Below are positions 12,656-51,367 of a DNA stretch of 64,000 nt, in pieces. The notes under the pieces were generated by a model that was not told where the DNA came from, searched no databases, and saw only the letters and a list, made by a program, of their open reading frames with translations. A program made the translations under genes and the position numbers. The first letter of the stretch is position 1, and each line of letters begins with the position of its first letter. Source of the stretch: Hydractinia symbiolongicarpus (taxonomy: Eukaryota; Cnidaria; Hydrozoa; Anthoathecata; Hydractiniidae); NCBI RefSeq assembly GCF_029227915.1, contig NC_079887.1, forward strand, positions 11,284,001-11,348,000, in the 5' to 3' direction.

Positions 12656-13276
12656 TCAGAAGCTCAGAACACCTACCAACACATCGCTTACGGTGAAGCT
12701 AATTTCTGGTCTTGACATACATGCCAACCAATTGAGCTTCCCAATTGATTGTCTCATTTTAGATCTTTCAACTTCATTGATTGGTTCATCCTTAGAGCAT
12801 TTTATTCTCTCCATACTAAGAGTGATTGGCTTTAGCTCATTGATATAATCGGCTTGTTTGATGGTGATTGTTCCATCTTCATTTTGATCGAGGTCAATAC
12901 CAATATATTTGAAGTGTCGCATATGTTCACTACTGGTCTTGAAAATACTCTTCAACTTTGATACCACATTAACGAAGGTAGAACTTCCTGCCCAAATCAC
13001 GTCATCAACGAAACATACCAATATTCCGAAAATCAATGTATTTGAAGACCAGATGAATATTCCTTGATCTAGTTCAATAGGCTTTCCACCAAGTTGAATT
13101 AATTCACTTCGCAGTTTTAGGTACCAGCTACGACTTGCGTCAGCAAGACCATACACCGTTTTTGACAACTTCCAAAGGTTTTTGGTATTAGCCTCCTTCG
13201 GCGGCAGAACAATGACTTCTCTGTCAATCTTCTTTCCTTGAAGGAATGCTGTTTTGATGTCCAGAGAATTCAACAT
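12656..13276 (-). pseudogene. Copia reverse transcriptase, catalytic part
   Basis: About 206 codons. The frame opens on SLDIKTAFLQG (the Copia RT aspartate block). KLSKTVYGLADASRSWYLKL follows, then the catalytic FVDDVIWAG block (Copia YVDD equivalent) and the connection region with SMERIKCSKDEP and IGKLNWLACMSRPEI. The RNase H domain that normally follows is absent. This frame joins the preceding one (13270-14232) only through a frameshift near 13273. Confidence 0.85.
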
Positions 13277-14232
13277 CCAATTTTGGATGAAATTATCGTC
13301 AATGCTAATCTCAATCCTTCCTTAGAGCACGTTGGACTGTCTGTTTTAAAATTTTGGACTTCTTCAAAACCACGTGCCACAAGTCGTGCCTTAACTGAAG
13401 GTTGGCCATCAATAATCTTTGGTGTTACAACCCATCGTAGACTCATAGTTTCTTGTCCTTCATTAGGTATCTCGATGTAGACTGAATTGTTAATCCATGA
13501 CTGTAGTTCTTTTGACTTTGCTGACAGTACTTCACTGCTGTTGGTGATCAGAGTGACTTCTGAAGGGTCATCATTGATTTCAATATCCTTGATGTTTGCA
13601 AAGTTTACCGCTCTCTTCATACCAGTTTCTGTTTCTACATTAAACCAGCCATCATGCTTGCCTCCAACTTTCCCTGCTCTTGATATGATTTTAGCCTTTT
13701 TCCATTCCCCACCATTGTCCTTATACTTTAGACAAAGATTCGGTCTTAATTTCGGCTTCTCCCTCGGCAGCATGCTATGTGCTTCAGCAGAAATTGGCTG
13801 TGTCTGATGAGCTGGTGCATCATTGTTTAAAGGCTCTGATTTTTCAGACGATTGATCTTCATTTTCTGATTTTTCAGACGAATGATCTTCATTTTCATTG
13901 CCAGATCCTGATTCTGATTCTGATTCTTGGAATCTAGGTGGTTGTTCCTCAGTGAAGGTGTTGTCCCCTGCCTCTGTCGTTTTTTCTGATGAACCACTGC
14001 CGCCGTCATGTACCAATTTTACACGACAAGGATGGACCCGAACGTAATAGCTTCCATGTTTGATCAAAATTTGTTGGCCGTCCTGACCAATCACAGTGCC
14101 AGGACCTTTCCATTCGTTGCTATCGTTCCGTTTATAGTAAACATTATCACCTGTAAGATATTTGGTTTCTCCTGAAGATCTAAATGTTGTGAGATAGTGC
14201 CCTTCTGATTCTTTCTGAGTGCTCACTTGCAA
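13270..14232 (-). pseudogene. Copia integrase C-terminus, acidic linker and start of RT
   Basis: About 320 codons. It begins with the integrase C-terminal SH3-like part (TKYLTGDNVYYKRNDSNEWK, GPGTVIGQDGQQILIKHG, RVHPCRVKLV). An acidic Ser/Glu-rich linker with short repeats follows (around 13830-13930). The last 80 residues are the start of Copia RT (LQSWINNSVYIEIP, SLRWVVTPK, KARLVARGFEE). The linker length and low complexity are typical of this position. The frame is shifted relative to both the integrase core upstream and the catalytic RT downstream. Confidence 0.8.
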
Positions 14233-15340
14233 TAAATGCTTCTCGAGCCTTGTGAAGGGCTTCCAGATTCTCTCTCATTAACTGCGTTGCTGGTTTTCCT
14301 GACAAGGCTGGTGGTTTGTCATCCATTAGTGATGGTAGACGTGGATTCGTTCCAATTGCTAATTGATATGGTGTAAAACCGTGTGCATTATGTAGTGAAT
14401 TCTTTGCATTTACACACCAATAAAGAGCAATATTCAAGCTGCAACTTGTATCATTGAGCACCTTGTCTAGCATGTTGGATAGTGTTTGGTTGTGTCTCTC
14501 AACAATACCATTTGACCAAGGGGATTCCGCGGCAGTTGTCTTAATTGTGATGCCAAATTGTTCTGCTAGATTGATGAGCTCTTCGTTAGCAAATTCACCG
14601 CCATTGTCGACTAAAAATTTATCACACGAGCCATAAACAGATATCCATGTCTTTAGTATTGCTTCAATAACAGTGGTCGGGTTTTTGTCCTTTATTATTG
14701 TTGCAGCAGATAGGCGAGTACAGAGATCGATTAGGTGAAGGATGATTTTCTTGTCGTAGAATTTTAGATCCATCGCAACGGTTTCAAGGAACTTAGATCC
14801 CATGGGTAATCCTACTACAGGGCGAGGTGGTGATCGTCGGTAGATTTGGCATGTTGTACATTCTTTATCAATTCTTTTTACTTCTGATATCAATTCTTTA
14901 TTGTTGTTCCATGGTGGTCCTGCCTTATTGATCAATGACATGAGTTGATTGAGAGATGGGTGAGCAAACTGTCGGTGAAGTTTTTCAGCGATTACAGTCA
15001 TGTTGTTGTCTTCCCTTGAGATAAAAACAAAATTGCATTCATAAGGTTTGTCGATTGATGCAATTACTTGACGCGGTCGAGTCAAAGGAATGGTATAATG
15101 TCCACTTGAGGTTGTGGCCAAGTGAACAGTTTCTCCCAATGCTTTTGCAGTGTCACTCTGGAAGTCAAGAATCATATCGGCCCTTTTCATAAACGATTTT
15201 GATAGTAACAGGTGTAGGACTTTTGGTATCACATCTGTATTTATTTTTACCTTTGTGTTGCCAATGATAGCAGGAATAGATGCTCTTCCACAAGCTTGGA
15301 CTTGTTCACTGTCTCCGAAGCGATATAAACTTTTGCTATG
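14180..15340 (-). pseudogene. Copia protease remnant and integrase core
   Basis: The N-terminal stretch keeps only the downstream half of the aspartic protease (FGDSEQVQACGRASIPAIIG near 15290, then LHLLLSKSFMKRADM). The integrase follows: an HHCC zinc module (HRQFAHPSLNQL, then CTTCQIYRR), then a DDE core with Asp in AMDLKFYDKK, Asp in FLVDNGGEF and Glu in NGIVERHNQTL. All three catalytic acidic residues are present. The protease DSG/DTA active-site segment that should lie between gag and 15310 is not present, implying a deletion. Confidence 0.85.
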
Positions 15341-16256
15341 GTGATGTTTTCTTCTCTTTTTGGTACAAGGAAATTGAAATTGAATTCTTCTCTTTTATCT
15401 TTTCCGGACAGTCTTGTTGCCAATGAAAAACACTTTCGCATATCGCACATCGAGATACACGACCATTCCTGTCAAGTGGGTTTTTAGTAGGTTTTCTTGT
15501 GCCATCTGCTTTGGGTCGAGAAGCATGTTTATCTTGGCGCCATGTATTCCCTTTTTTGTTGTATCTTGATGATGATGCAAATCTTTGATTTAGATTACGT
15601 TTGGTGTAATATATCCCTTCTTCATCTGATGATGATTGTTGACACTCGTCTGGGTATGCTTCATTAGCATAAAACGATGGTTCTGCTTTGATTTTGATGG
15701 AGGACATACTACTGTCTAAGTCACCATCAATTGATTCTTCGGCAAATACTTTTATCAATTTCTGTCTCACATCATCATAAACTAAGTTTGTTATTGTTGC
15801 TTTTATGAGTCTTTCATGAGAACTGTCAAGATTAGCAGCCTTTAATAATCTATAGGCTAGCAGGTCATCTGGGTAATTGATGTAAGCCTTTATCTTATAG
15901 TACCTCTTTTCAAACTCTGTTAAGAAATCTCGAATCTTCTTCTCTTTTGTTCATTTATAAGTCTCAAATTTTTCAATTGCATCAAATTTTTCTGTCAGTT
16001 TATCCTTTGCATATATCTTATCGAGCCTCTTTAAGATATTCTTAACTCCGTCTTCAGATGATATTTGTTCAGATGGAAGTTCCAATGCAGCTTCCTGTGA
16101 TTTCCCATCAAGAGTAAGTACAAGGGACGGTCCTTGTTTCTTTTTATCTAGTGTTGTAAGCTCCGTCCAAATTCCAATTAATTTCTTCCAATAATCATAG
16201 TTCTTACTTTGGGATAGCAGAGGAGGAGCTTTATTGTATGACACCGACGTTGCCAT
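15336..16256 (-). pseudogene. Copia gag with one in-frame UGA
   Basis: The frame starts at ATG 16256 and encodes a Copia gag (YDYWKKLIGIWTELTTLDKK, then a block ending SQEAALELP). One TGA at 15951-15953 interrupts it, and the same frame continues with TEFEKRYYKIKAYI and LLAYRLLKAANLD. It ends in a CCHC zinc knuckle (CAICESVFHWQQDC) near 15430. It stops at 15336 in LYQKEKKTSP. The single UGA could be an inactivating mutation or, less likely, a readthrough site. Confidence 0.85.
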
Positions 16257-19939: not shown

Positions 19940-21615
19940 GTTGATTAATTTTGATTGCCTTATGGTATATTGCACATATTATCTTTATCAACAAAAAAGT
20001 TGAAGTATCCTCCTTAACTTCCACTATCTGGCAAATTTTCAAATGCGTGTTTACATCTACCAGAAGACAGTTGATTTGTTGATGTGTATGGCTAAGTTTA
20101 AAATTGAGCTAATTAGCTTCTGTAAATTGCAGTTTCCGGTGTTGCTAGTTGGTGAATTAAGCTCAAATATATATATATGCACTTCTTAACTTCAATGCAG
20201 GTGCATGGTGCTTTGTCTACCCACATTGGTATTGTCTCAATTATTATTTTGAGACACCTCTCAATCTATAAAAACAAACTACAAATATTAGAGTTGCATG
20301 ACAAGTTTTTATTTAATTTCTACAAGAAATAACAAGCCTTATTGATGACTATGAAAACCCAACAACGTCAGTGACCAAGGTTGGATGAAAAATGAGGAAG
20401 GAGTTCTGAATAATCTTTCTTAGGTCATATATATACTTTTAAGTTTTTTACACATTTTCATTTTTTCTTAAAACTGTTATTGGAAGTTAAATGCATGGAA
20501 AAAACATTAAACCTAAAACCCACCCACATGCCTGTTCAGGAATTTTTGAGCAGACCTGCACCCACCCACAAACTTGACAAGTCTGGCAAGTGTGGATGCT
20601 GCCCCTTAGGATACCATCTTAAAAATTTAAGCATATAGGACCTTCACCCTATAAAGTATACAGAAAATCAGAAGCTCCTTTGCGAGATTTATTATCTACT
20701 TTTTTTTTCATATCTTGGCGTATTAATCCCTTGTCCCCAACCTGGTATTGTGTAACAATTCATAAATTTCTAATTTTACTACAAAACAAGTCTTGAGGCT
20801 TAAGATATTATGCTGACAGTTCAGAATAATCAGAAGCATTTAAAAAGAATAGCTTTACACCTCTTACTTGGCTGATTATCTTTTTAAAATTGTATATTTT
20901 AGGGTTTTAACACCAGTCGAGTGAGTTCTCATTATTTATGTTATATATTTTTATTGTTTTAGCTATTTTTGTTTATTGGTATGGATACTATTATTTTACT
21001 CTTATTTATTCTCTTTTTTTTCTAGTAATCTCAATTTCTATCGCTATGTTGTATTCACCAATCTGATCAACTAAACTCTGGCTTGAATATGTTTGGCGAC
21101 TATGTTGTTAAAATTTAAAGTAGTTGATGCTTATATTTCTTCTTTTATAATTTTTCACACATCTTGCTTCTTATTATAACCCCAATGTTTATTAAGTTTA
21201 AAAGTCGTCAAAAGAGAAGACCTTAATCTTTTGCGTTTTTTTTATGAACAGTTTTTTGAAAAAATGTCATTGCATTACATTTTGAAGTGTTTAATAAAGT
21301 GCCATTTGTGTATAATATTTTGAGGTTATATTTTGTGGATTTGTGGACAAACTTTTTAATATAAAAAGTCCTCGAAACTCCCCAAATCTCCTCTAAAATC
21401 CTCACATTTAAAATTGTCTTTTTGAAAAAAAATTCAAGTCTTTTCTAAATTTTGATTTTTTAGTAAACTATTTTAAACTATTTTTATCTTAAAAATGTAT
21501 ATAGATGCTATTCTTGTTCAACTTAACACTGTCATTTTTAATTTGACTATGTAAAAAGATGATCCTACACCTAATTTTTGCCTTTAAACAATGCTAGAAA
21601 TAACTGTGAGATATT
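19940..21615. other. Upstream region of the PHETA gene
   Basis: No gene recognised. A short AT microsatellite lies at 20168-20178. Because the PHETA coding exon begins just after a splice acceptor, a non-coding first exon and promoter probably lie here, but I cannot place them. Confidence 0.35.
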
Positions 21616-21636
21616 GTGTCATTTCAGTTAAAGAAA

Positions 21637-22497
21637 ATGAAAATAAATGATAAAAGTCTAGCGTTGTACGCTTCCTCTCGAGAAAGTATTAGCAAAGATG
21701 GCTATCTGGAAAAGAAAGGCGAAATAAACCATGGATACAAAAGGCGATGGTTTATTTTAAAAGGAAATTTATTGTTCTACTTCGAGAAGAAAACAGAAAA
21801 GCAGCCTATTGGAGTGATTATTTTAGAAAACTGCAGTGTGGAAGTCAGTGATGGCGACAAGTTTTCGTTTTGTATACGTTACCAGGCATTCGGCACAACA
21901 GGTGCCTCTAGAACATACATTCTTTGTGCAGATAGCGAAACTGAAATGGAGCAATGGATAAAATCAATAACCTCTGCTTCTTATTGCTATGCAGAAATGT
22001 TAGTGAAAGAATATGAAAAAAGATTAGCCATTGAAAAAATAAAAGCTCAAGACACAAATAAAAAAAGTTTCCAAGAGACAAAGAAGCAAACATTATTAGA
22101 CACTTGTTTAACACAGGATATAAAAAATCGGGATTCGATAGATTCGAGCAGTGTCACAAAAACTGTTTCGTCTGTAAAAAGTGAAAGTAAGTTCCAAACT
22201 CTTTCTGCGGCTACGTTGAAGCCACCCAACGCTATGTATACGGTCCAGACAACGATTCATGCAAAAACGAAATTTAAAACTCTCAATGGAATGAGAAGGA
22301 CTAAAAGTTCAGAGAATCTGAACAGAATAATGCCTTCTAAAAGTCCAAAAAGCAAAAGAAAAACTTTAAAATCTGGCAATGATTATGCACTTGATAATAT
22401 GACAGACATCGCGTATGAAACAGAAAAATCGACATTTGAAACTTTACACACATCGTTTGGAGCAGCTGTATGGACGAAGATTGGTAACACTCTATAG
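21637..22497 (+). CDS. Sesquipedalian-type PH domain protein (PHETA/FAM109)
   Basis: The 286-residue product resembles PHETA1/2 (Ses1/2), endosomal adaptors that bind the inositol 5-phosphatases OCRL and INPP5B and help recycling and retrograde traffic. The family start MKINDKSLALYAS is followed by a PH domain at about residues 21-118 (DGYLEKKGEINHGYKRRWFI, LLFYF, PIGVIILENC, invariant Trp107 in MEQWIKS) and a basic coiled helix. A long Ser/Lys-rich linker and the C-terminal F&H motif TFETLHTSFG (267-275), the OCRL-binding element, complete it. The ATG at 21637 is chosen because an acceptor (cattttcag-like, AG at 21626-21627) sits just upstream, implying a non-coding 5' exon. The coding region is intronless, as in vertebrate homologues. 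The linker is longer than in human and the middle is poorly conserved. Confidence 0.9.
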   Translation: MKINDKSLALYASSRESISKDGYLEKKGEINHGYKRRWFILKGNLLFYFEKKTEKQPIGVIILENCSVEVSDGDKFSFCIRYQAFGTTGASRTYILCADSETEMEQWIKSITSASYCYAEMLVKEYEKRLAIEKIKAQDTNKKSFQETKKQTLLDTCLTQDIKNRDSIDSSSVTKTVSSVKSESKFQTLSAATLKPPNAMYTVQTTIHAKTKFKTLNGMRRTKSSENLNRIMPSKSPKSKRKTLKSGNDYALDNMTDIAYETEKSTFETLHTSFGAAVWTKIGNTL

Positions 22498-29355: not shown

Positions 29356-32300
29356 ATGACGTCTCTAAATGAAAATTCGCTTCAATTGAGGCTGGAGAAA
29401 CGAAAGGGAACAATGTCAGAAGTGGACAGAGCACATTTCGAAAAACAGCAAGTGAGTCTTTCTGTATGGTCTCTAATGAATTTTGGTAGTCCTTTTTCAC
29501 ATAATGAAAATTGCTATATTTCAGTCAAAGATATGTAGTTAGGTGCCAGCTATAAGTAACTTTTGTCACGTTTTACTGATTTTGCAATAGGGGTGCTGGA
29601 AAAATAGTTAAATATTTTAACTAGGGTCTGTTTACAATACACCTCTTCACAATGAGTTGTTTGCTCATTTTCTGTAAGAAAAAGTAAGTAAATAGAGAGA
29701 ATTTAATAAGGCATTATGAATATTTTTAATTTTCTGGACAAACAATTAGTCTCATGGCATAAAATTAGTCTCACAGCATGTAAAGGAATTTTAGCTATTC
29801 ATTTTAAAATATTTCACAAAAAAATTATTTCACTTTTCTTCATAGTCAGAAGAGCCTTCGTAATTCATAACAGTTTACTTCTTTTTTCCAATTCTCAAGT
29901 TTATTTAAACAAAACTGTGAACTCGTGTATCCATTTACATTTTTAACAAATTTTAGTTTATGTGGAGAGGATCCATGGCATACCAGTTCAGACAAAATAA
30001 AAATTTCCTAACCCTTTAGGTGCCCTTAACCCTTTATGATGGTGTTCGTTCTTCCTATTAAATTTTATCTATTTTTGATTGAGAATTCAAAGCAAAAGTT
30101 TGTTTAAAATAATGAAATTTTGGGTTGACATTGAATCCAACTGAAATTAAGTTAATTAAATGGCCATAACTGTCCCTTTCCATATAAACAGCCCACCCCT
30201 GAGCAACATAATGACATCAAAATTGGATTACAGTTTACAGTTTTTTTTATTATGAAATTACGGCCGACAACGTTGCGAGAAACTGATGTAGGCTACGAGC
30301 TGACCAATAGAGTTGCAGGCAACCACTAACCACAAGGGTGTTGAGTGAAAAAATTTTAGGGTTAAAGGTTACTTAGGATGCTTATAAACGTTTATGCCAA
30401 ATAAGTCTTTATAATATGTTATTAAAGAATTCAGATCAAAATTCTCACAAACACTCACATGAGTCATAAAAATTACCAATACAAAGTTTTATCTCACCAT
30501 CTGAACTAGCACGCTTATTGGCCACTAAAAGTCTGCTGGTATGTCAAAAACCAAGCGAGGTACCTAAGAAAATAGAAAAATTTGCTGCATGCTTTTTCTG
30601 TACAAATGTTTTAAATTACCCTATTTTTAAAAATTTATACTCCTTGCAAAAATCAATGACATATTTATTCGTAATATATCAACATGTGTGCACTTCTGTA
30701 AATGTCACAAATAGTAAATAGAAACAGGTAGGATGTTATGCAGCCATATTCTAAAAAATTGTACATAATTATTTAATTAATAAATGGTAAAGATAATTTG
30801 CAGGACTATATTTATGAGGGGCTCCAGTTCATGGGGGGTTAAATCATATTAATGTATATGTCAGATTATGAGATATGTTTTGGTAATGTCAACAAAGATA
30901 GCGCTTGAAAAAGGATAGAAAAATATATCAGTATATTTGTTGCTGACGAACAGTTACAGAAACATTGTGGTGTGATATTTTCTTAAAGGTGTTATTAATC
31001 CAATAATTCCAAAACGAACAAGCTTTGGGGAATTACACAAATTGTGCTTTCTTTAATCTTATACTGTACTGATGTCAAACTAAGGTGTTAATGTTGCATC
31101 ATAGCATAAAAATAAAGAAATGGAGTATGTTTTTTCGGGTATGTACTTAAGGAAAATGTGATGTATTTTTTTTTAAGAAAATTACATGTACATATAGCAT
31201 GATTACCTTATTTGTTATAATATTTCATTGATGTACTATTTTTAGGCCGAATGCATCATTAAAGCAATTAAAAATGAAGAGTCGCCAGCCAAAGAAAAAC
31301 ATGTTCGTCGTATCTTTTCAATTTATAGTTGTATAAATTAAAAGGTTGTATTAAAATAAAAACATAAGTTGTAAAACGTTCAGAGTAACTGCTGAACATT
31401 TTGTTTATGCTAATTCTTTTAATAGTTCTTATTAATAAGATTAGGTTAAACAGGTTTTTGTATTAATTATTGTAGAATGTTCCTTAATTAGTTAATCAGG
31501 TACTATCATTGGTACATGGCAAGAGCGTGGCAATTCTATGTTTTGGGGCGTCATTGGTAAACAACCATTGCCATCACAAGCAATTTTATGTTGGAAATCA
31601 CTTACTGTTTTGCATAAAATAACAAGAGAAGGTCATCCAAATGTAAGTGTTAATATATAATGCCTATGGTACAAAAACTTACAACACTTGAATTGTTAAG
31701 TTATTGTTAAGTCACTTGTTAATACACAAACAGTCAATCATGTGATGGAAAAACCTTGGTAAAATTTACCTAACAATGACAATCTTTTATGTGCTTTCTT
31801 GTATGAAATGAATCGTTTTATTATTGCGAAGTCTTTTTGTGTTGTATTTATTACTTATAATCTTTGGGATTATATTTCACAGGTTTTGAAAGATTCATAT
31901 GTATATCGAAAAACATTGCGAGATTTGTTTAGTGTTTACGTAAGTTCTTATGATTAATAAACTAGCTACTATTTTGTACAAATATTTCTATATTTATAGT
32001 ATGTGTTTTTAGAGATTTCAAGCTGGAACTTATGGCCCCTTGATTTGTGAATATTTAAAAATTTTGCAATCCAAATTAGAATTACACCACAAGGTATGAA
32101 ACATTTTTTTATTTTCATTTCATGCATTTCCTTCCAAATGACTGGTATATAACCCTATGAAAGCTACCAAGGTAATATTAATCGTGCAGCACTTTATGAT
32201 TCTTTTTAGTATCCTGGAATACCTGGTTCTTTGTCATTCTCACAAGAAAATCCAGTAAAAATACCAGAACGTGATATAAATGATATGTATGTTTTTTTAT

Positions 32301-35845: not shown

Positions 35846-38800
35846 GTAAGTTTATGCTTTTACACTTCTTAGATGAAAGGGTATGAACAAACATTTTGAT
35901 GTGGAGCATGTTAGATTAAACATTTTGTAATGACTTTTGAATTTCCTAAGGACAGGTAGTCAATTTCAGAATGTTATTTGTTATCATGCTTGTTTTTTTT
36001 GGGCTACCACAAGCAAAAGCATGCTTCATTTTTTGCAAATCGATGTACTTGTTAATTCTGTCCAGTTATTTTGTTTGATGAAAAAACTTTTTTTTTGTCT
36101 GTTGTGTAAAATCTATTTCAAAACAACAAGTTCATAATGGGTGTTCAAATTTTATTAGAGATGTGTTGATTGAGCAGCTAATGAGGGAAATAGAAGAATT
36201 ACGGGAACAACTGGAGTACACAGAAAAACAGGCAGGAATTTAACCTTTTTCAAATAATATGAGCAATAATGTCATTTGAGATATAATTTGTGTCCGGCTT
36301 ATGAGTTGAGAATAATTCAGTGTAAAGTTGTTGTCTCTTTTAGGCAAATGAAATGGAGACTAATCTTAGAATGCAAATTATGAAGGTAAGATTTTTAAAA
36401 TGAATATATAAATTTGGGTAGTTCGTGGTTCAACAAGTTTTTTATTGAGTATTGTCTTAATTTTCTTTAGCTCCAAGAAGATCTAAAGAGGATGGAAAAT
36501 CTCGCTAGACAAGCTAACGAAGTACTTTTGATGATTATTTTTCTAGTGTCTTAGAAACCTCCACAATTTTAAATCTTGACTCAAGTTTTCTAGAAAATAA
36601 TTTTTTGAGGAAACACTTTGTAATTTCCTTTTTAGGAAAATAAATTTCTAAAAGAACAACAGGAAAGCATGAAAGAGGACTCTGATGCACAAGGTAACAT
36701 TAAGGAATGCATTATCATCCATATTTTTTTATCTTATTGTAAATAATTTGTCTTATTTGATGTATACAAAGTATTGGATGTTTTTATGGGGTACCAAAAA
36801 CAATGGAACTGCAAAGATATATTTATTTTAAAAAAACATTGCACCTTTTACAATTAATAAAACTTATTTGAAAGGCAACCCTGTTATCACCTTTTTTTGT
36901 TTCACAGAGAAAGCGAAATCAGCAGACGAGAAGTTTAATAAATTAAAGTTATTATATGGGAAACTAAGGCAGGAACATATTGATCTTCTTCGTAAGGTAA
37001 ATTTTATGTTATTGTATTGTATGTTCTTTAGTCATGTTTGTGTTAGTATTGTACTTTTTATTCATCAGTCAAATATTTTCTGTACTAGAACTTATTTCAT
37101 TTCTCTAATTTATTATTTTATATAGAATGCTGAAATCAAACAGAAAGAGGAAAATACCCTGAAAGCCAAAGTGGTAAATACATTTAAGCAGCAATCAACA
37201 GAAAATTATTGTTTTATAGACCAACTTATTATTTATCTCAGTAATTTACTATAAACTATTGTCTGTCTACACAGGTAAGGTCATCATAACTCCAAAACTA
37301 AAGCAAAAAAACAACAGAAAGATAACAATAATACTAGAAATTGTATTTCCGAAATACTTAGATTTTTTGTTACTTCATTCAGGAACTTGAAGAAAACCTG
37401 AACAACGCTCAAGAAGAATTACTACAAAAGGTTTGTGTTTATACACTATTATGAAGTTAAATTGTCATAACAATTGTTGTTATGTTTCTAATTCATGTGT
37501 AGGAGAAAGAGCTTGCTAATTATCAAGAAAAACTAGAGGAATTAGAAAAAATTAATCAGGTCAGTAGCCTACAGCATCGCTATGTTTTATCTTTGACTTT
37601 TTTTCTCTTAAACACCACAAGACATGCATTCGTGTAGATACTTTTTTTAGTGCTGACAAAATTTACAATTTCTCTGCCACATTTAAAGCTAATGGTGATC
37701 TTTTTTTTGCTGTATTTTGAACTCACATTGTATAGCCCATAACCCACCTTTCCAAGAGAGAAACAAACCCAAGACCCTGAGATAGCCTGCACCTTTGTAT
37801 TACCTGCATCTTGTTATAAAAAATTCAGTCAATGTATTTTTTACTTATCCACGATACTCAACAATAGAAATATTGAAGTTATAATATAACCCTTACCACA
37901 TTATATCTGGTGTTTACATTGGAAATTCGTAAAAATAAATTATGCAGGTTATATACGAAAAACACTTTATGGATACTTCATATAATAACTGATTAAAACA
38001 TGTATTTGTATTTGCAGGATCTAAAAATTGATTTTGATCAAACAGACCAAAACAGCAAAACACAGGTAAAGAAATAATATACTCATACAATCTGGATGTA
38101 AACGTTGATGTTGCAAATGTTGATTCCATGTTGATTTGATAACGTAGATTGGAAATTTGAATGACGAAATTACAGCATTGAGGAAGTCACTAACAGATGC
38201 AGAAGAAAAATCGAGGGTAAAAATTTTTATGCTATTTACGTTTATTTCAGTTTCAAATATGTATGTACAATCATATAATATTTCATATAATCTTATATCA
38301 TATTTCATACAATCATTTAAATATCATATTTTCATATAATTTCATATTAGAATCTGGAAAATGAATTAGAAGAAACTAAACGCAAAACTGATGAACAGGT
38401 AAAATTGAATGCGTTATTTTACAAATATTATGTTGAACAGAAATCACACAATTCCTTTATTCATATCACACACAACTATATGTCAAATGATTCAGGAAAA
38501 TATTAAATTTAACAAAGATAATTTTTAAGAAATATAGGAAGCACACCCTTGACCAGATCATTACAAATTTTAGTTCACCTTTGTTGGAAATTAATTTTTT
38601 TTAGGTTAAGTCACTGGGAGATCAGTTACAAAATATCACTACAGGAAAGATTACAGAAGAATCAGCAAGGAAGGTGAGGCTTATTGGTTTTCATGGTTTC
38701 ATGGTTCGCGTTTAAAAACATTTCTGTATTGTACATGTTCTCTATATATGTAATTTGTATTCATTTAGAATGCAGAAGATGCAATTTCCCAACTGCGAAA

Positions 38801-41800
38801 AGATAAAGAACAAATGGTAAATTGATTGTTGGGATTAAGTAGTTAAAATGTATCTATAAACAAATACTAACTTATTTCATTGAAGGAAAACATTGATTTC
38901 ATGGCTTGTTGTTTGTTGGCTCCAAATGGACTAACCTTTTTCTTTTTGAAACTGTAGCTAAATTCTTAATGACAGATTTATTTTCATTAACAGATTCTAT
39001 TTTGATTATTAGAGAAATGAATTAGAACAATCTTTAGCAGAAACGAAAACTTTGTTAAGTTCAGAAGAGCAAGCAAGGAAGGTAAATGCTATTTTAAAGC
39101 AATTTTATGTTTATGTATGGCAATTTAATTAACAAATGCTGGTTGTTGTGAGCAAGAAAATTCGTTTCCACCACTAGTGTAATAGCTTTGTTGTTTGTTC
39201 CTAGCAGCAGAAATTGCCCTTTAATAGCCAAGTAATATCTTTAGCAAAGAATTTCGCATACCCCTGTGTGAACCAGGTGCCAGGTTCCCTGTCATATTTC
39301 ATTAGAATAAACAGGGAACCTTCGGTTTTTGTAATAATGCAGATGGCAGAGTGGTTTGCAGCAGTAACCAGATGGCAGTAATTTGTCAGCAATGTCACAG
39401 GAATTCTATGACACACACCAAAAGTGCTTGCGCAAAATCAGCCAAAAATGTAAGGCTCACAAGAACATAGTCAAATTGCCTTACATGGTGCTACAGAAGC
39501 AAATGACTTTAAAACCATTTGCCTCGCCTAAGATAAATAAAACACTGTTTTTACAAATCGAAAGAGCACAGAAGAAGAAGAAGAATGGTGGGGGCAAACC
39601 ATTTTACCAGTAAAAATAAATCGACAAACAGTTCGAGCTTCGACTGCTTTATTAAAAAAAACACTTTATAATTACTTATGGGTTGGTTAAATTATTGTGA
39701 AAAATGCTGAAACGTCTTAAAGTAATATGCCTTTTCTGTTTGTAGATAAATTAATTTGAATTAATTCTTTTATTAATGAAGATTTGTTAGTTAATTATAT
39801 TATTTTAGAAACTTTACAATATTCGTTTTGAAATTAGGAATTACCTAAAAAATCTACGAAGATCTCTGAAGGAAATTAATGAATATATACACATCAAAAT
39901 ACGGGTGAATTTTACAGAAGATTAGTAACAGCTCTGTAAAATGACCTGAACAGCAATGGTTTTTTTTTGCCATCGCAATATGAAACCGCAAAATTGCAAC
40001 GTCAATTTTCAATTGCGAACCATAGTAAATATTTTGATGCTTTTCTTGTTTTATCTTTCTGTGATTTTTACATGCATTGTGTTTTTGCATCCATAAATGA
40101 AGTTAAAACAAACTTATTTTTTAAAAGGAAACAGAGGACCAACTAAAGAAACTGCAAGAAGATATGAATAATGAGGTATCAGTTGCACATTTGTTTTCAT
40201 TTTCAAAGCTTAAGTTAACCCATGTAGTGTTGGGAAACTTTTTCAGCAAAATAAAATAAAAAACTCCTGGTCTTGTTTTTTCAGGTTAGTCGGTTAAAGC
40301 AAGAAATTGAAAAAGTCACCAAAGAAAAAGAAGATCAAGAAAATGCAAAGAATGTATGTATTTTATTATGCTTTCTATAAGCACCCTTTTTAAAAGTGAA
40401 GACATGATTAAATACGTAAGTTGCTGTTAAATTATTCTTAAGATTATTTCCTATTAATCTTAAGGCTGCACAATCAACTTTGAATGCGTTGCAATCTAAC
40501 AGCTCGTCAGAGGTATTGTGATTATTTCAGATTAATTCTTTACAATCCATTTTATCCACTCATTATTTACCCAGTAGTATTCTTTATTAGATTCAAAAGT
40601 TAACAGCGGATTTACAAGAACTTCATACAGCTAAGCAATCATTGTTGACTGAGAAGGAGGTAAATACAATTTCATATAATGACCTTAAAACTTGTACTGT
40701 ATTTTTGTACAAAGACTCTCAAATTTCTTTGAGGGTCTTTGTAACAACAAAATACAGTACAATTTAACAAACAGTGTGTTTCGTGATATTCATTAGTTTA
40801 CCTTCCCTAAGGCTTTAAGCAAACATGAGCTGGTGTGATTGTTTCTTTGCATGGAGTAGACATCAAAGGAGAAAGGAAAGCACACTAAATTTGTCACTCT
40901 GGTGCATTTTAACCTGTAGTGTGGTACAAAGGGAAGATGAATTTATATAGTAAAATATTATGGTTTAACTCCTAAGTTTTTTTAGTTAAATTTTAGTGAG
41001 GGCTTTTGATATCCATTAGTATATTGAAAATGTCCCCTCCAGTTTTTAACTCCAGGGTTGAACTGCATGTAAATTCAGACCTTATCTTCATTATGTTTAC
41101 ATTTAATATATTCTGTTTTAGAAATTGCAACAAGATTTATTATCCAGTCAAGCTGAACTAAATAAACAGGTATGTTCACGGCATCCAGTATGATTTTCTA
41201 ACATTTTAAAAATGTTATTTAAAAATGTTATTATTAATCTATTTTCATTTTTCATAGTTGTCAGAATTGAATGATAGTTTAAATGAAACAAAACAGCAGT
41301 TATCAGAAGAGTCAACTAACAGAATGGTAGCTAACAGGATTTTTATTTTTGTATTGCTTGCTTACTTAATGACCATAATATTTGCGCATTAAGTAATCTA
41401 ATTGGGCACTTATTCAATTTTGACCTACTTGAAGAATTGCGTGGAACTTGAAGGCAGTTACAAAATCTCTTTGATGGTTGTCATATCTTTAACACATCAC
41501 TTGCACTGACAATATTCGTAATATCTATTTTTAAATATCTTACTTTAAGGGATAATAAATGAATTTTTCTAATAAGTGGCCCCTCTACATGGAGGGCTTA
41601 ATAGAGTACCTATAAGAGGGTTCACTCTCAGAATATTCAAATGCGCATTTTCTTCATTCCATATATGTATATTTTTTAAGGTTAGTTATTTTTATCTCTT
41701 TTTTTCACTTTTACTATTCTTCACACATTAGAGACTTGAAAATCAATTGCAACAAATGACAGAAGAACATGCATCAAAGGCAAGTTATCTACTCTTTTGT

Positions 41801-44800
41801 TCTTCTTCTTTGATTCTAATCTTAGTAGTCTGGCAGTCTAATAGTTATTCTCGATTTCCTAAACTGTGCTTTCAGTTGTGTAATGTCTGCATCAGTCAGT
41901 TTATTTTTACTCATTTCGTGCAAGAATAAGTTTTGATAAGTTAACATAGCTTTTTTCTTGTTTGTTTAAAAAGATTTTGATGTACAGGTTGCCATGCTAT
42001 CTGCAGATCTACAACAGATAAAAACAGACAAAGAAATGGAGGAAAATCTAAAGAAGGTACATTATTTGTTACATTTTCATTTTTAACATTGACTTTACCC
42101 TTGCTTACTAATGAAGATAGTACATGTAGTGTTATTTTGGAAAAACCTTAAGTGATAAAACTGAAACAGGTTCTTTAGGTCATTCCTTAAAAAATAAAAA
42201 TTTCTTGCGTATTGGTATTCATTAAATGTTACAAAGTGTTTGAAGTTTGTTGATATGTGTTGATCTTGTTTGAAGTGTGTTTAACCAGAAAATACAATTT
42301 AAAGTTTTGTTTGTTACTTACAGCAAAAAGAAGAGGAGCTAACAATGACACGTAACAATAATTTAACTGCGGTATGTTTTATAAAGTTGTTTGTTGTTGT
42401 GTGTTCTGTTTGACAATTGTTTTTGCTGTGTTGTACGATTTGTAAAGAAATATCTTAAAGAGATGTTTTATTTTTATTTAGTTGCAAGAAAAAGAAAGAC
42501 AACAACAAGAAACTGCATTGAAAGAAAAAATTGAGTTACTTGGTGAGGCAAATGTTACATGTCATATCGTATCTCCCTGAAAAGGGATTGATACCAAATT
42601 TTTAAGTTGAAATACAAGAAAAAGATAGAATTTTGGTGGCAGTTTTGGTATGCAAAATGAACTAAAACCACCGGACTACCCTTAAATCATATGAGATCAT
42701 AAATCCTATCTATATTAGGACCGTAAAAGTGTAATAAAATGTGTGTAGTTAGAAGCAGGACCTGCCCTTCATGAGATTTGAGTGTTTAATTTTCTATGTG
42801 TTAAATATGAAAAAATTAACTGTATTTTAATTGAAAAAGGGTATATATTTTTTTGTATTTCCACACAGCTGCAACTGCAAAAGAATGTGAGGAAATTATT
42901 CAAGACACACTGGAAATATTTAATAATCCTTCTCATGAATCTGGAACAACATGTTCTGCAGGTACGTCTATGTTTCAGCCATATTACTATATTTTTCAAA
43001 TTGTATTTGCTTAAAAAGGCTTGCTAGTATATGAGGATAATTTATTTAGAATATCTTAAGTCTCGTTTGGACGGTTTAACAACACGTGTACAGAATACAA
43101 CTAATACTTACAGTTCGTTTCACACTACACACGAAGGTGGGTTTTAACTGATTAAATTTTTTTTTTCAGTTAGCTGCAGCAGTTGCAACATGTTTTTCTG
43201 GTATTTTATTGTAGCGTGTGTGACCACTTTGTAAGATTTAGACCCTGTGAAAACATATTGGACCAGATTTGGGGATATTGAGTCTAAAATTAAGTTTCAA
43301 TTTTGATTTTGATTTTTCACATTTTTTATTTGTTTATATTATTTTCTCTTTTTTTTTCTGTTTAGATGTTCTTCCACTTGTTACTAAGTTAAACTCAACC
43401 TGTCATCATATAAGTGATGCGTTGATACACGGTAAAGCAACATCACACATGGCTGCGCAGGAGGATTCACAAAGTATGTTTTTTAATTTTTTTAAAAAGT
43501 AAACGTGTAGTGCCAGTATGAACATTACAAATGTTTCGAGGTTCTTTTTGTAGCTATGTATCAAATTAAGATTTTTTTTAATAAATAGCAAATAGTAGCA
43601 GATGAAATATAGACACGGTTCACGTGACATATTTATTTACATTGAATAAATACGCCACTATGCAAAATATGAAATTGTATGTCCTCTGCTTGATCTATTG
43701 TGGTGCTTGCATTGATCTTTTTTTGCTGAGAAAAAGAATAAGAGAAACTGAAAGGTTTTTAAGTAAACGGCCATGTGTTGGATCTATTCCATTTAAGATG
43801 TCAAATTATGACTTCTATTTATGGTTGGCATTTACTAGGCTTGGTAACATCTTGTAAAGGTGTTGGTGAAGCAACTCTTGCATATTTACAACAATTCAAA
43901 AACCATGCAGGTAAGGTATACTCAAAGCATGTTTGCATGGTGTAACCACTTAAAGCGTGTTTGCATGTTGTATTACTTAAAGTGTGTTTGCATTGTGTTG
44001 CTACTTAAAGTGTGTTTGCATGGTGTAGCTACTTAAAGTGTGTTTGCATGGTGTAACTACTTAAAGCGTGTTTGCATGGTGTAGCTACTTAAAGTGTGTT
44101 TGCATTGTGTAGCTACTTAAAGCGTGTTTGCATTGTGTAGCTACTTAAAGTGTGTTTGCATGGTGTAGCTACTTAAAGCGTGTTTGCATTGTGTAGCTAC
44201 TTAAAGTGTGTTTGCATGGTGTATTACTTAAAATGTGTTTGCATGGTGTAACTAATTAAAGTGTGTTTGCATGGTGTGGCTACTTAAGTGTGTTTGCGTG
44301 GTGTAGCTACTTATGTAGTAATAGTCAGATTGTTGACCTTAAGGTGTAAATCATTTTTTAATCCCAAGAATATAAACTGAGTAAAATTTGTCTTGAACGC
44401 AAGAAAGAAAAAAATAAATATTTTGAATTGTTTTTTTTTTTTTTTTGCATTTGGGCGTTTTCAAATTTAGTTACCGTGGATCATGGCCAAATATAGGCTC
44501 CTCTTGTGATATTTAACACATACAATTTGCAAATAGCCAGTCACATGTTATCACGTTTTCTACAAACTATTATTCATTAATGAGAACCATGGAACCTTTA
44601 TTAATGAAAGATTAATTACATGGCTGTAATGAAGATATTGTGTAGTATATACCTAATTCTCAACAAATATATTACCAGTGATGGGTGCAATGTTTGTTCA
44701 TTAGTTTTTATTGAAACAATTGTGGTACATTGTTCTCAATGCAAAAACAGTACATTGCACGGAAAGTGGTCTATTAAATATTTATATGTAAAAACAAACT

Positions 44801-47800
44801 TTACATTCTTCTCAACAATTTTTTTTATGAGTATGCAAATTTATACTTTATACCTTATATTAGTAACAATTTTATTTTTTCTGCCTTTTTCGGTCAATGT
44901 TTTTATGAAAATCCTTGCAAAAAGAAAGAGATTTTGTGTTGCAAAACCTTTCGAGAGTTCCCAACTTCACCTATATCTTTACCAGCCATCATTAGACAGC
45001 TATCATCATTGCAGCTTACTGTTTTGTCTCTTCATCATATACATGCAGACAAAACATACAATACAACTTCTTATATTGTAACCGTTAGCAAAAGATTTTC
45101 ATTTAATTTGGATTTTTCACTGAAAAAGAAACTAGACACGATTAATATGTTTCAGCTTTTGCTAGGTAAATCCTTAATGATTTTACCGAGTGACCTATTT
45201 TTGCAACCTTTTTAAATAAATATTTTATATTTCTCTGAGTTAGATCCGTCCAATGTTCAAAACGACGCATCCGTGTTAGAAAAAGAAATAACGAAAATGA
45301 TTGAAATTTCTGAGGTAGATTGCTTTGTTCAACTTATGTTAAAAAGAAAAAGTTTTTTCTGTCCCATCCTTGACGTCAAATAAAGTCATAATAACTGTGT
45401 TTGATATTCTACTGATAAAAGCTGGTGTTTTTGGGTATAGAAGAAATTTCGAACCTATTGTGAAAAACATTTTTTATTGAAGGAACTCGTACAAAAACAA
45501 TCTGATTCTGCGGTTGATGTTGAAAATATAGTAGATGAAGAGATGCATGCAACTGAAAAGGTTAGTGTTGTTTGTCCTTTTTATAATTTTTAGTTGCTTA
45601 AAATTCCCTGTTTGTTTCCATTTGTTTTTTCTGAAACCAAAATAACTTTATAACTGTTTTGAAATTTATTTTAGATTGTTGCTGATGCAGCATCCAGGAT
45701 AGAGGTAGGTAATTATCTGAATTTTATTTAAAATTTCTTCCGTCAAAATTTCTTCCTTTAAAATTTCTTCGTCCAAAATTTCTTCCTTTGAAATATCTCT
45801 ATTCAAAATTTCTTCATTCAAAATTTCTTTATTTAAAATTTCTTTGTCCAAAATGTCTTCGTTCAAATCTTCTTCGTTTAAATTTTCTTCCTTCAAAATT
45901 TCTTTCGTCAAAATTTCTTCCTTTAAAATTTCTTCTTTTAAAATATCTCCGTTCAAAATTTCTTCATTTAAAATTTCTTTATTTAAAATTTCTTTATTTA
46001 AAATTTCTTTTTCAAAATTTCTTCGTTGAAATTTTTTTCGTTCAAAATGTCTTCGTTCAAAACTTCTCCGTTTAAAACTTCTTCGTTAAAAATGTCTTTG
46101 TTTAATTCTGTTTTAGGAACTTCTCAACAAATCAAGAAAAACACACAGTGGTGTGCAGTTAGAAGTCAACGAAAGGTAAACAACAAAACTGAATCTTCGG
46201 CTGCCGTATATTTGTTGTTTTCATCTCTTTTCATTCTCTTTCTAAATACAATGTAGCCTCTTTAAAGAAAGAATTGTGTGAACAGTGTGATTGAAAATTT
46301 GAAGTCAAGTAACAATCAATAGAGTGAAGTGGTTTTAAACACAAAAACACAAAGGCGCAAGTTGAACTTCCTGTTTTTTTAAAAAAATGTATTTACCATT
46401 TTTTATTTTAGAATCTTAGACTCGTGTACCGGTTTAATGGCTGTAAGTTAAATTTTAGAATTTACTTAAATTTTTTTCATTGGATATTTGTATTTAAACT
46501 TTTTACATGTCAACGTACTGAAATTTTGTGAATTGTATTTTAGGCTATTCAACAGTTAATTTTACGATCAAAAGATTTACAAGACGAAATTGTCGCAGAA
46601 GGGAGAGTATGTATTTTGATGTATTACTTCAAGTTGTTATAATAAACACATATTTCATGTTTTGGCATGCCACTTCTAGCCTCGTTTTGAGGCACGGTTC
46701 GTCATCAGGTTTCTAAAAATTATACACAGGGAAAGGTTAGAAATATGTGACGTATGTGAATGTGTGTGATTTAACATTAATGTATCTTTCTCGCAAAACC
46801 TTTGATTTTATATCACAGTATCAGGTTGATCTGGTGTAGTCCATGCAAAACCTTATTTGCCAATCAACTGTTACAAATCTTTCCTGAAGATTTTGTCCCC
46901 AATGACGTCACTTTATTTGGTCAAATTTGTTTTGCTTCTTTAGTATTATTATTTTAATGCATAAAATTTTATTTTTCTTAAACTTCTAGGGTTCAGCCTC
47001 TGTGACGGAGTTTTATAAACGCCATCATAAATGGACAGAAGGCTTGCTTTCTGCTGCGAAATCAGTTGGTTATGGCGCGACCTTGCTTGTGTAAGTAGAA
47101 TCATGTAATAGAATGAAAACATAACGTCGTGTTTAGCAGGGTGTCTACTACTCCTGGGATCTCCCAGGAATGAAATAAAATTCCGGAAAGTTAAAAGAGG
47201 GAGAAAAAATTTGGAAACTAATTTCTTCTTTGTTTGTTAAGGACTGTTTTTAGTCATCTATGGAAATTGTTTAGGTTTTATGGAAAGTGATAAGTCATGT
47301 TTTTTCTCGAACTGACTACACCTTGAAAATGTGTTTTCAGTGGCTCTCATGTAAAAATGTTTAGTAGTGTATTTATTAAGCGTTTTCAGGTCCGGAATAA
47401 TGGCCAGTCAACATGCGCGATATTGTAACAATTAACTTCACTAGAACTTCTGTCTTTTTTGCTATATAGGGATGCTGCCGACAAAGTTATTGAGCGTAAA
47501 GCCAAAATGGAAGAGTTAATTGTCGCTTCTCACGAAATTTCTGCATCAACCGCTCAACTGGTATGATTATTCATGTTGCATCTAGTTTCTGACCTTTTCA
47601 ATTTCAGTCACAATTTGGTATTTTTTCGTAGTCTGCAAAAGTAGTCTAGAAAAATTGATGAACTTGGTTGTCAAACTTTTAATAAAAAAACTTTTGCATC
47701 GATTACCGAGAAATAAATAAACGCAAGAAAAAGAATAAAAAATTAAATTTGCGGATTTTCCTTGTTGTCACAAACTTAAATCTTTCTGTAAAGTCAGTAT

Positions 47801-50710: not shown

Positions 50711-50867
50711 TTATAGCTATCTCTATTTATATTTTATAAAATAAAAATCTTTATGTATTGTTGAAAGCGTGGAAAATTTTTAAAATAAATCTTCTAATTA
50801 CGATGACATCAGTCTCTGACTTTATTAGCGCTAATTCGCATTGCGTGCACACGCTTACCTAGTATTA

Positions 50868-51367
50868 TTTTGTTTTGGTAACATCAAATACTGTTTTGGT
50901 AACATCGAGTACTGTTTTGGTATCATCGAGTACTGTTTTTGTAATATCGAGTACTGTTTTGGTAACATCGAGTACTGTTTTTTGGTATCATCGAGTACTG
51001 TTTTTGTAATATCGAGTACTGTTTTGGTATCATCGAGTACTGTTTTGGTAACATTGAGCACTGTTTTGGTATCATCGAGTACTGTTTTGGTAACATCGAG
51101 TACTGTTTTGGTATCATCAAGTACTGTTTTTGGTATCATCGAGTACTGTTTTGGTAACATCGAGTACTGTTTTGGTAACATCGAGTACTGTTTTTTGGTA
51201 TCATCGAGTACTGTTTTTGTAATATCGAGTACTGTTTTGGTATCATCGAGTACTGTTTTGGTAACATTGAGCACTGTTTTGGTATCATCGAGTACTGTTT
51301 TGGTAACATTGAGCACTGTCTTTTGGTATCATCGAGTACTGTTTTTGTAATATCGAGTACTGTTTTC
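50868..51367. repeat. 21-bp tandem array with higher-order structure
   Basis: About 23 copies of a 21-bp unit (gagtactgttttggtaacat plus one base), with variants ggtatcatc, gtaatatc and ggtaacattgagc. A longer block of several units (from about 50970 to 51060) recurs near 51185-51275, indicating duplication at two scales. Five of six frames of the unit lack stops, so the long open frames here are by-products. Confidence 0.95.

Follow-up and report, generated by a model that had tools for sequence, protein, structure and literature searches.

HIP1, HIP1R and Sla2 are linkers between clathrin and actin, built from an ANTH domain, a central coiled coil and an I/LWEQ domain. Residues of the DLLRKN stretch in the coil of human HIP1 are required for clathrin light chain binding, which may differ in fly, worm and yeast (PMC3005887), and HIP1R and HIP1 dimerise via their coils (PMC7041948). 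Short repeated exons that give a mechanical protein a species-variable length are already known from the PEVK region of titin, where many short repetitive exons lie in one gene (PMC6469411), and expanded domain repeats arise by internal tandem duplication within a gene (PMC1553488). Here we describe an array of alternating short exons in the HIP1 gene of the hydrozoan Hydractinia symbiolongicarpus. The gene lies in a window of 64,000 nucleotides (nt), which is the whole stretch analyzed (contig NC_079887.1, positions 11,284,001 to 11,348,000, forward strand); all coordinates below are positions within it. We think it likely that the array arose long ago by serial duplication of a two-exon cassette (48 + 69 nt, 39 residues) in the rod of cnidarian HIP1, with seven units in the ancestor of hydrozoans and scyphozoans and later losses of pairs.

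Several features set this array apart from the systems it resembles. Titin PEVK is a disordered spring (PMC6469411), whereas the HIP1 unit belongs to a helical coiled-coil rod and is encoded by an exon pair of two fixed lengths, present in seven copies. Unlike the units of expanded domain repeats (PMC1553488), it is not a globular domain, and an intron splits it into two half-integral pieces. The Hydractinia protein shares the DLLRKN stretch with its family; within that family, cnidarian proteins carry the 39-residue repeat between this site and the actin-binding domain, and in the vertebrate, insect and sponge proteins scanned a 39-residue shift does not rank first or second, except in one lizard protein (P0046), where it ranks second. 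An array of this sort in HIP1 appears to be new, as do its distribution among cnidarians, its constant step and its half-turn split: among the literature matches listed, from a collection with few subscription papers, no title or abstract opening describes the array or a 39-residue repeat in HIP1.

The HIP1 gene model occupies 29356 to 49570 on the + strand and comprises 53 coding exons encoding 1,187 residues. Its spliced product is identical, letter for letter, to the NCBI Hydractinia symbiolongicarpus protein "huntingtin-interacting protein 1-like isoform X1" (P0001; 100% over 1,187 residues). An ANTH domain is found at the N terminus (PF07651, E = 1.1e-50, residues 32 to 293) and an I/LWEQ (THATCH core) actin-binding domain at the C terminus (PF01608, E = 3.1e-51, residues 1024 to 1173), and the C-terminal domain is matched by the structure 1r0d. 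Within the coil, LLRKNAE begins at residue 421 and is preceded by Asp, completing DLLRKN. Exon 17 (36908 to 36996, + strand, 89 nt) ends in DLLRK, and the Asn of exon 18 completes the motif, which is known from human HIP1 (PMC3005887). By its domains and this stretch the protein is a member of the HIP1/HIP1R/Sla2 family, with putative binding to the clathrin light chain. Exons 18 to 20 (37126 to 37559; 48, 48, and 57 nt) encode a 51-residue spacer between this site and the array.

The initial annotation reported that exons 21 to 35 (38018 to 42371) alternate between 48 and 69 nt. Indeed, all 15 exons are found in the gene model at those positions on the + strand, each with incoming phase 0 and without stops, and the numbering holds once the start exon (29356 to 29451) is counted. 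The 48-nt and 69-nt exons encode the 16-residue and 23-residue parts of a unit, respectively. Unit 1 is encoded by exons 21 (38018 to 38065) and 22 (38148 to 38216), unit 2 by exons 23 (38351 to 38398) and 24 (38605 to 38673), unit 3 by exons 25 (38769 to 38816) and 26 (39013 to 39081), and unit 4 by exons 27 (40128 to 40175) and 28 (40285 to 40353). These are followed by unit 5 in exons 29 (40465 to 40512) and 30 (40591 to 40659), unit 6 in exons 31 (41122 to 41169) and 32 (41258 to 41326), unit 7 in exons 33 (41732 to 41779) and 34 (41988 to 42056), and a closing half unit in exon 35 (42324 to 42371). The alternation ends at both sides, with the three spacer exons upstream and exon 36 (42482 to 42542, + strand, 61 nt), which leaves phase 0, downstream. 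Acceptors are AG in all 15 exons and donors are GT in 14, the remaining one being the GC donor of exon 33. In 20,000 permutations of the 53 exon lengths, the longest run of period 2 was 7, compared with the 15 observed.

The 14 introns of the array are 78 to 1,046 nt long and show no match to one another at E < 0.01, suggesting that the duplications are old. Across the array the DNA contains short repeat families of two or three copies and no other repeats. The exons themselves retain similarity: nucleotide identity between copies is 0.41 and 0.42 for the two exon sizes, compared with 0.33 and 0.32 after codon shuffling, a null that does not preserve coiled-coil register, and none of 500 shuffles was as high for either size. 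Tandem exon duplication is recognized by copies that share exon length and phase, that resemble each other beyond a matched null and that differ in whole-unit number between species, and all of these were found. Similar introns between copies, a further mark, were not found, as expected if the duplications are old.

To place the array among relatives, we compared 27 proteins taken as cnidarian. Eleven are named by species: Hydractinia, Hydra vulgaris, Rhopilema esculentum, Desmophyllum, Acropora cervicornis, Oculina, Porites evermanni, Pocillopora damicornis (two models), Xenia, and Dendronephthya. The other 16 were placed by similarity: P0002, P0003, P0005, and P0010 to Hydractinia (56 to 61%); P0006, P0009, and P0011 to Rhopilema (66 to 75%); P0007 to P0006 (75.5%); P0013 to Rhopilema (100% identity over 1,000 aligned residues); and P0012, P0014 to P0017, P0057, and P0058 to Desmophyllum (81 to 90% identity in the ANTH part). 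The first homologue search scored 7,984 candidates, and a wider listing gave 120 of 2,550 matches; no sea anemone, tube anemone, staurozoan or cubozoan was recognized among the named matches listed. For the scan of repeat lags outside Cnidaria we took 27 of 96 new proteins from the wider listing, giving a set of 69 (44 + 25 new), with five others lacking a usable region.

When each coil was compared with itself, a shift (lag) of 39 residues ranked first or second in all 27 cnidarian proteins (25 + 2), with z scores of 2.5 to 11.0. Where it ranked second, lag 78 was first, except in P0003, where lag 7 was first. In the non-cnidarian set, lag 39 ranked first or second in only two of 69 proteins: P0052 (first, z = 4.1) and the lizard protein P0046 (second, z = 2.7). 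The score of the top lag (39 or 78) was unmatched by 200 shuffles in each of the eight cnidarian proteins tested. The hydrophobic pattern that the initial annotation described within the exons is also present: across the units of six seven-unit proteins, core columns fall at positions 2, 6, and 9 of the 16-residue exon and 1, 4, 8, and 11 of the 23-residue exon. A coiled coil is periodic in any case, so non-core surface columns were also tested alone. In three of four proteins tested the units proved alike in these columns as well, with shuffles as high in 2 of 1,000 for Hydractinia, 2 of 1,000 for Rhopilema and 0 of 1,000 for a coral. Judged by their sequences, the units are true repeats, that is, homologous copies, and the suggestion that the exon pair is a serially duplicated 39-residue unit is borne out by the lag-39 signal, the surface columns and the exon nucleotide identity.

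The hydrophobic period of the array follows the unit. In Hydractinia the power spectrum peaks at 3.545 residues, or 39/11 (power 4.92), and falls to nearly zero at 3.5 (0.01), the simple heptad value, in agreement with the earlier proposal that a whole pair keeps the hydrophobic stripe in register. The peak is also at 39/11 in Rhopilema and a coral and at 3.535 in Hydra; ahead of the array, the coil has its peak at 3.485, close to that of a heptad. At this period the 16-residue exon spans 4.51 turns, the 23-residue exon 6.49 and the pair 11.00. Since each exon covers a half-integral number of turns, loss of a single exon would rotate the stripe by about 180 degrees, and loss of a pair would leave it in place. 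This split may explain why units change in pairs, presumably through selection on register. In this coiled coil, exon borders agree with the helical register when exons are taken two at a time but not one at a time, which ties the structure of the gene to the geometry of its product. At 0.1485 nm per residue, one unit adds about 5.8 nm of helix and seven units about 40 nm. An AlphaFold monomer model (mean predicted local distance difference test [pLDDT] score, 73.2; predicted template modeling score, 0.37) is helical over most of the array; being a monomer it is silent on dimers, and the periodicity suggests that the array forms a dimeric coiled coil. The end of exon 29, in unit 5, encodes a Ser/Gly-rich patch (SNSSSE; SSSGGE in Rhopilema and QSSSE in the Clytia-type protein), shared with scyphozoan-like proteins, near a helix break in the model, and is a possible hinge.

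The initial annotation took serial duplication to have lengthened the rod. That this distinguishes the Hydractinia lineage is not supported: the same seven units occur in the same order in Rhopilema and four scyphozoan-like proteins (P0006, P0007, P0009, and P0011), and corals have units of the same kind. A unit profile, trained partly on Rhopilema, Hydra and a coral besides Hydractinia, locates seven units spaced 39 residues apart in both P0006 and P0007; in P0009 and in P0011 it locates six, with a single 78-residue gap at the missing unit. Matching Hydractinia units 1 to 7 position for position is the best of 5,040 possible orders against each of these five proteins. In a tree of 63 units, each of positions 1, 2, 3, and 5 is united in a single group that takes in Hydractinia and all five proteins, with starred support for positions 3 and 5. 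The collinearity argues that the seven units predate the split between hydrozoans and scyphozoans. Fewer units are found in Hydra (four), the Clytia-type protein P0010 (three), P0002 (five), and hexacorals (mostly four). The five units of P0002 are best read as 1, 2, 3, 4, and 7 and the three of P0010 as 1, 4, and 5. This points to a loss of pairs in Hydra, P0010, and P0002, with loss probably preferable to parallel gain. For the four hexacorals included, the tree clusters unit 2 with unit 4, away from units 1 and 3, and lag 78 often scores above lag 39, suggesting that a two-unit block was duplicated or homogenized in corals. The same unit number in distant orthologues, proposed as the sign of an ancestral array, is seen within Medusozoa but not in the sponges and bilaterians examined.

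We considered a vertebrate origin of the unit and rejected it. The cnidarian unit profile scores -39.6 to -49.8 in seven vertebrate HIP1 proteins and -26.7 in a lizard HIP1R, and one ray protein lacks the motif. The snake HIP1 model P0096 lacks 73 residues relative to P0102. Set beside the 34-residue gap of P0101, this implies a block of 39 residues that begins at the DLLRK|NAE border; given the negative profile scores, its equal length is a coincidence. Among the reptile HIP1 models compared (P0096, P0101, P0102, P0111, and P0112), P0101 and P0112 lack a 34-residue block starting 39 residues past DLLRK, and P0096 lacks all 73 residues after DLLRK. The vertebrate rod may thus vary in length by splicing too.

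Rod length in cnidarians mostly changes by whole units. The interval that runs from the DLLRKN-equivalent site as far as LEVN, a motif close to the actin-binding domain, equals 285 + 39n residues, to within 1 residue, in 19 of 23 usable proteins, with n equal to 2 (a Pocillopora model), 3, 4, 5, or 7. Both anchors are present in 24 of the 27 proteins, and P0013, with two inserts, was left out. In the 15 cnidarian rows with all anchors (of 23 rows given), this interval ranges from 402 to 559 residues, and the stretch from the start of the coil to the site is 100 to 107 residues. The spacer from the site to the array was measured in 18 of the 27 cnidarian proteins; its length is 51 residues in 17 of them and 52 in P0047. 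Two sponges have intervals of 286 and 288 residues, near the zero-unit value; this may be chance, as a tunicate has 267 and a sea urchin 254. Repeats in the two sponges are not significant, with 122 of 200 and 11 of 200 shuffles as high. Across the natural series of three, four, five, and seven units, together with the near zero-unit length of the two sponges, the part between the clathrin site and the actin site changes in fixed steps, and the role of spacing in force transfer becomes testable through natural rods of different unit number. The initial annotation also put the surplus over vertebrate HIP1R at about three units. The total difference from a lizard HIP1R (P0062) is indeed 123 residues (1,187 versus 1,064), but the rod interval differs by 205 (558 versus 353), or 5.3 units, making "three units" a coincidence of total length.

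Repeats of other lengths occupy the same rod interval elsewhere. Three hemichordate proteins (P0080, P0082, and P0083) show lags of 21 and 42, with lag-21 z scores of 6.8 and 7.7 in the two with anchors, and two mollusc proteins (P0084 and P0161) show a lag of 25 (z = 4.5 and 5.9). None of 200 shuffles was as high in either group, and a chiton protein (P0113) has no lag-25 peak. It thus seems that animals have lengthened the HIP1 rod on more than one occasion.

Exon borders in the relatives can be approached through inserts and gaps in protein models. P0013, which equals the Rhopilema protein P0008 over 1,000 aligned residues, carries a 12-residue insert placed exactly at the equivalent of the junction between exons 27 and 28, plus 66 additional residues elsewhere. 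In the Porites evermanni model, an insert of 23 residues falls exactly on the start of the array. Stretches of 39 or 78 residues are missing from gene models in three coral genera. The Porites and Acropora cervicornis models each lack exactly 39 relative to close transcripts; the 39-residue gap aligns one residue off the 16|23 border, an equivalent placement with the same Lys flanking both sides. In Pocillopora damicornis, 78 residues kept in one model are absent from the other, and the similarity of the repeats leaves the border of this gap ambiguous by several residues. Also missing from the Acropora model are a block of 14 residues that corresponds to Hydractinia exon 14 (42 nt) and other stretches for which no exon match is claimed. 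These inserts and gaps may be real isoforms or prediction faults. Pair skipping by splicing, which the initial annotation suggested from phase, would be possible by arithmetic and is hinted at by the coral models.

In the history that we favor, a two-exon cassette would have been duplicated serially 51 residues past the DLLRKN-equivalent site and before the actin-binding domain, and the common ancestor of hydrozoans and scyphozoans would already have had all seven units. Whole pairs would later have been lost in some hydrozoans (Hydra, the Clytia-type protein, and P0002), and hexacorals would have come to carry mostly four units with a two-unit sub-repeat. Each unit would add 11 hydrophobic turns and its 5.8 nm of helix, such that pairs, and not single exons, could be gained or lost without breaking the coiled coil. 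A recent serial duplication in the Hydractinia lineage, leaving its rod about three units longer than that of its relatives, would fit the Hydra vulgaris protein, which is 115 residues shorter, and the three units of the Clytia-type protein. The match of seven units, position by position, in Rhopilema and the four scyphozoan-like proteins, the dissimilar introns of the copies and the coral array of the same kind make this very improbable, and we rejected it on the collinear units. Still less credible is an ordinary coiled coil that is periodic through its register alone, with no duplication. Core columns do carry most of the similarity in Hydractinia (z = 5.8 versus 2.8 for surface columns) and the surface test fails in Hydra, but lag 39 in Hydractinia (z = 7.4) stands far above the register-like lag of 32 (z = 3.7), is rare in the other coils of the same family scanned, and is accompanied by surface columns that are alike in three of four proteins tested.

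A 39-residue repeat might also have arisen first within one long exon, with introns inserted later at like sites, and the array introns are unlike in length and sequence, as this would allow. It would, however, need 14 introns to have entered in phase 0, always at one of the same two positions within the unit, and coral and Rhopilema models have inserts or gaps at the same borders; we regard this route as improbable. A serious contender, to which we give somewhat less than an even chance, concerns the deeper past: a cnidarian ancestor with one or two units and parallel expansion of the same cassette in Anthozoa and Medusozoa. The separation of units 2 and 4 from 1 and 3 in the four hexacorals, the frequent excess of lag 78 and the failure of any coral unit to group with a single medusozoan unit all agree with it. 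The tree, however, rests on 39 columns and has 34 open forks, and homogenization or later duplication in corals would look alike. Such a beginning is compatible with the favored history for Medusozoa.

Several observations count against an old cassette with seven ancestral units. The array introns, as noted, lack similarity to one another. The margins of the collinear matching are thin in some proteins (381 versus 380 in Rhopilema and 384 versus 382 in P0006, compared with 374 versus 348 in P0009 and 385.6 versus 366.8 for the mean matrix); by the mean matrix, the best partners of Hydractinia units 6 and 7 are units 4 and 2, and the tree does not bring positions 4, 6, and 7 each into one group. 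The four Hydra units, whose identities are ambiguous, fail the surface-column test, with 325 of 1,000 shuffles as high. In the octocoral Xenia, lag 39 (z = 2.6) lies below the 95% level of shuffles (3.1), which lag 78 alone exceeds. Four of the 23 proteins are off the length steps (P0003 by +4, P0005 by +14, P0017 by -17, and P0055, with a 23-residue insert, by -16), and the constant of 285 was fitted to the same proteins, which are related, so that the 19 are not independent cases. The exon borders of relatives are inferred from inserts and gaps in protein models (15 pairs compared). The AlphaFold model has helix breaks at residues 542 to 549 and 634 to 686, with pLDDT below 50 at 542 to 544 and 637 to 669. 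Finally, the DLLRKN site varies among cnidarians, being LLRKN in Hydra, MIRQN or MIREN in scyphozoan-like proteins, VLKKH in P0002, and LLRTN or LLRAN in corals, and clathrin light chain binding in relatives with an altered site is uncertain.

This variation bears on function. If the site still binds clathrin, the array would alter the spacing between clathrin and actin and not that between membrane and clathrin. The rod could then be predicted to act as a quantized clathrin-actin ruler, its 39-residue step (about 5.8 nm) enforced by the half-integral exon split and its length possibly tuned by cells through pair skipping. We consider this doubtful, and the altered site in several cnidarian relatives makes it less likely.

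Other features of the window were also noted. Intron 40 of the HIP1 gene contains a 28-base-pair minisatellite of 14 copies (43919 to 44313) that begins 8 bases past the end of exon 40, and a T-rich tandem array of 15, 30, and 45 base pairs (45730 to 46105) occupies most of intron 43 and stops 11 bases before exon 44. Directly downstream of the gene (50835 to 51350), repetitive open frames on both strands are apparently a tandem repeat. Upstream, on the same strand as HIP1, a 295-residue open frame (21610 to 22497) matches a PH domain (E = 1.2e-21). On the - strand, open frames at 12656 to 15394 match RVT_2 and an integrase core and look like pieces of a Ty1/copia-type retroelement, and one at 8162 to 8494 matches the sodium:sulfate symporter family (E = 7.6e-14) and is probably a single exon of an SLC13-type gene. 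In public records, the HIP1 orthologues P0047 (Desmophyllum) and P0089 (Gekko kuhli) are labeled "histidine permease," apparently a naming error.

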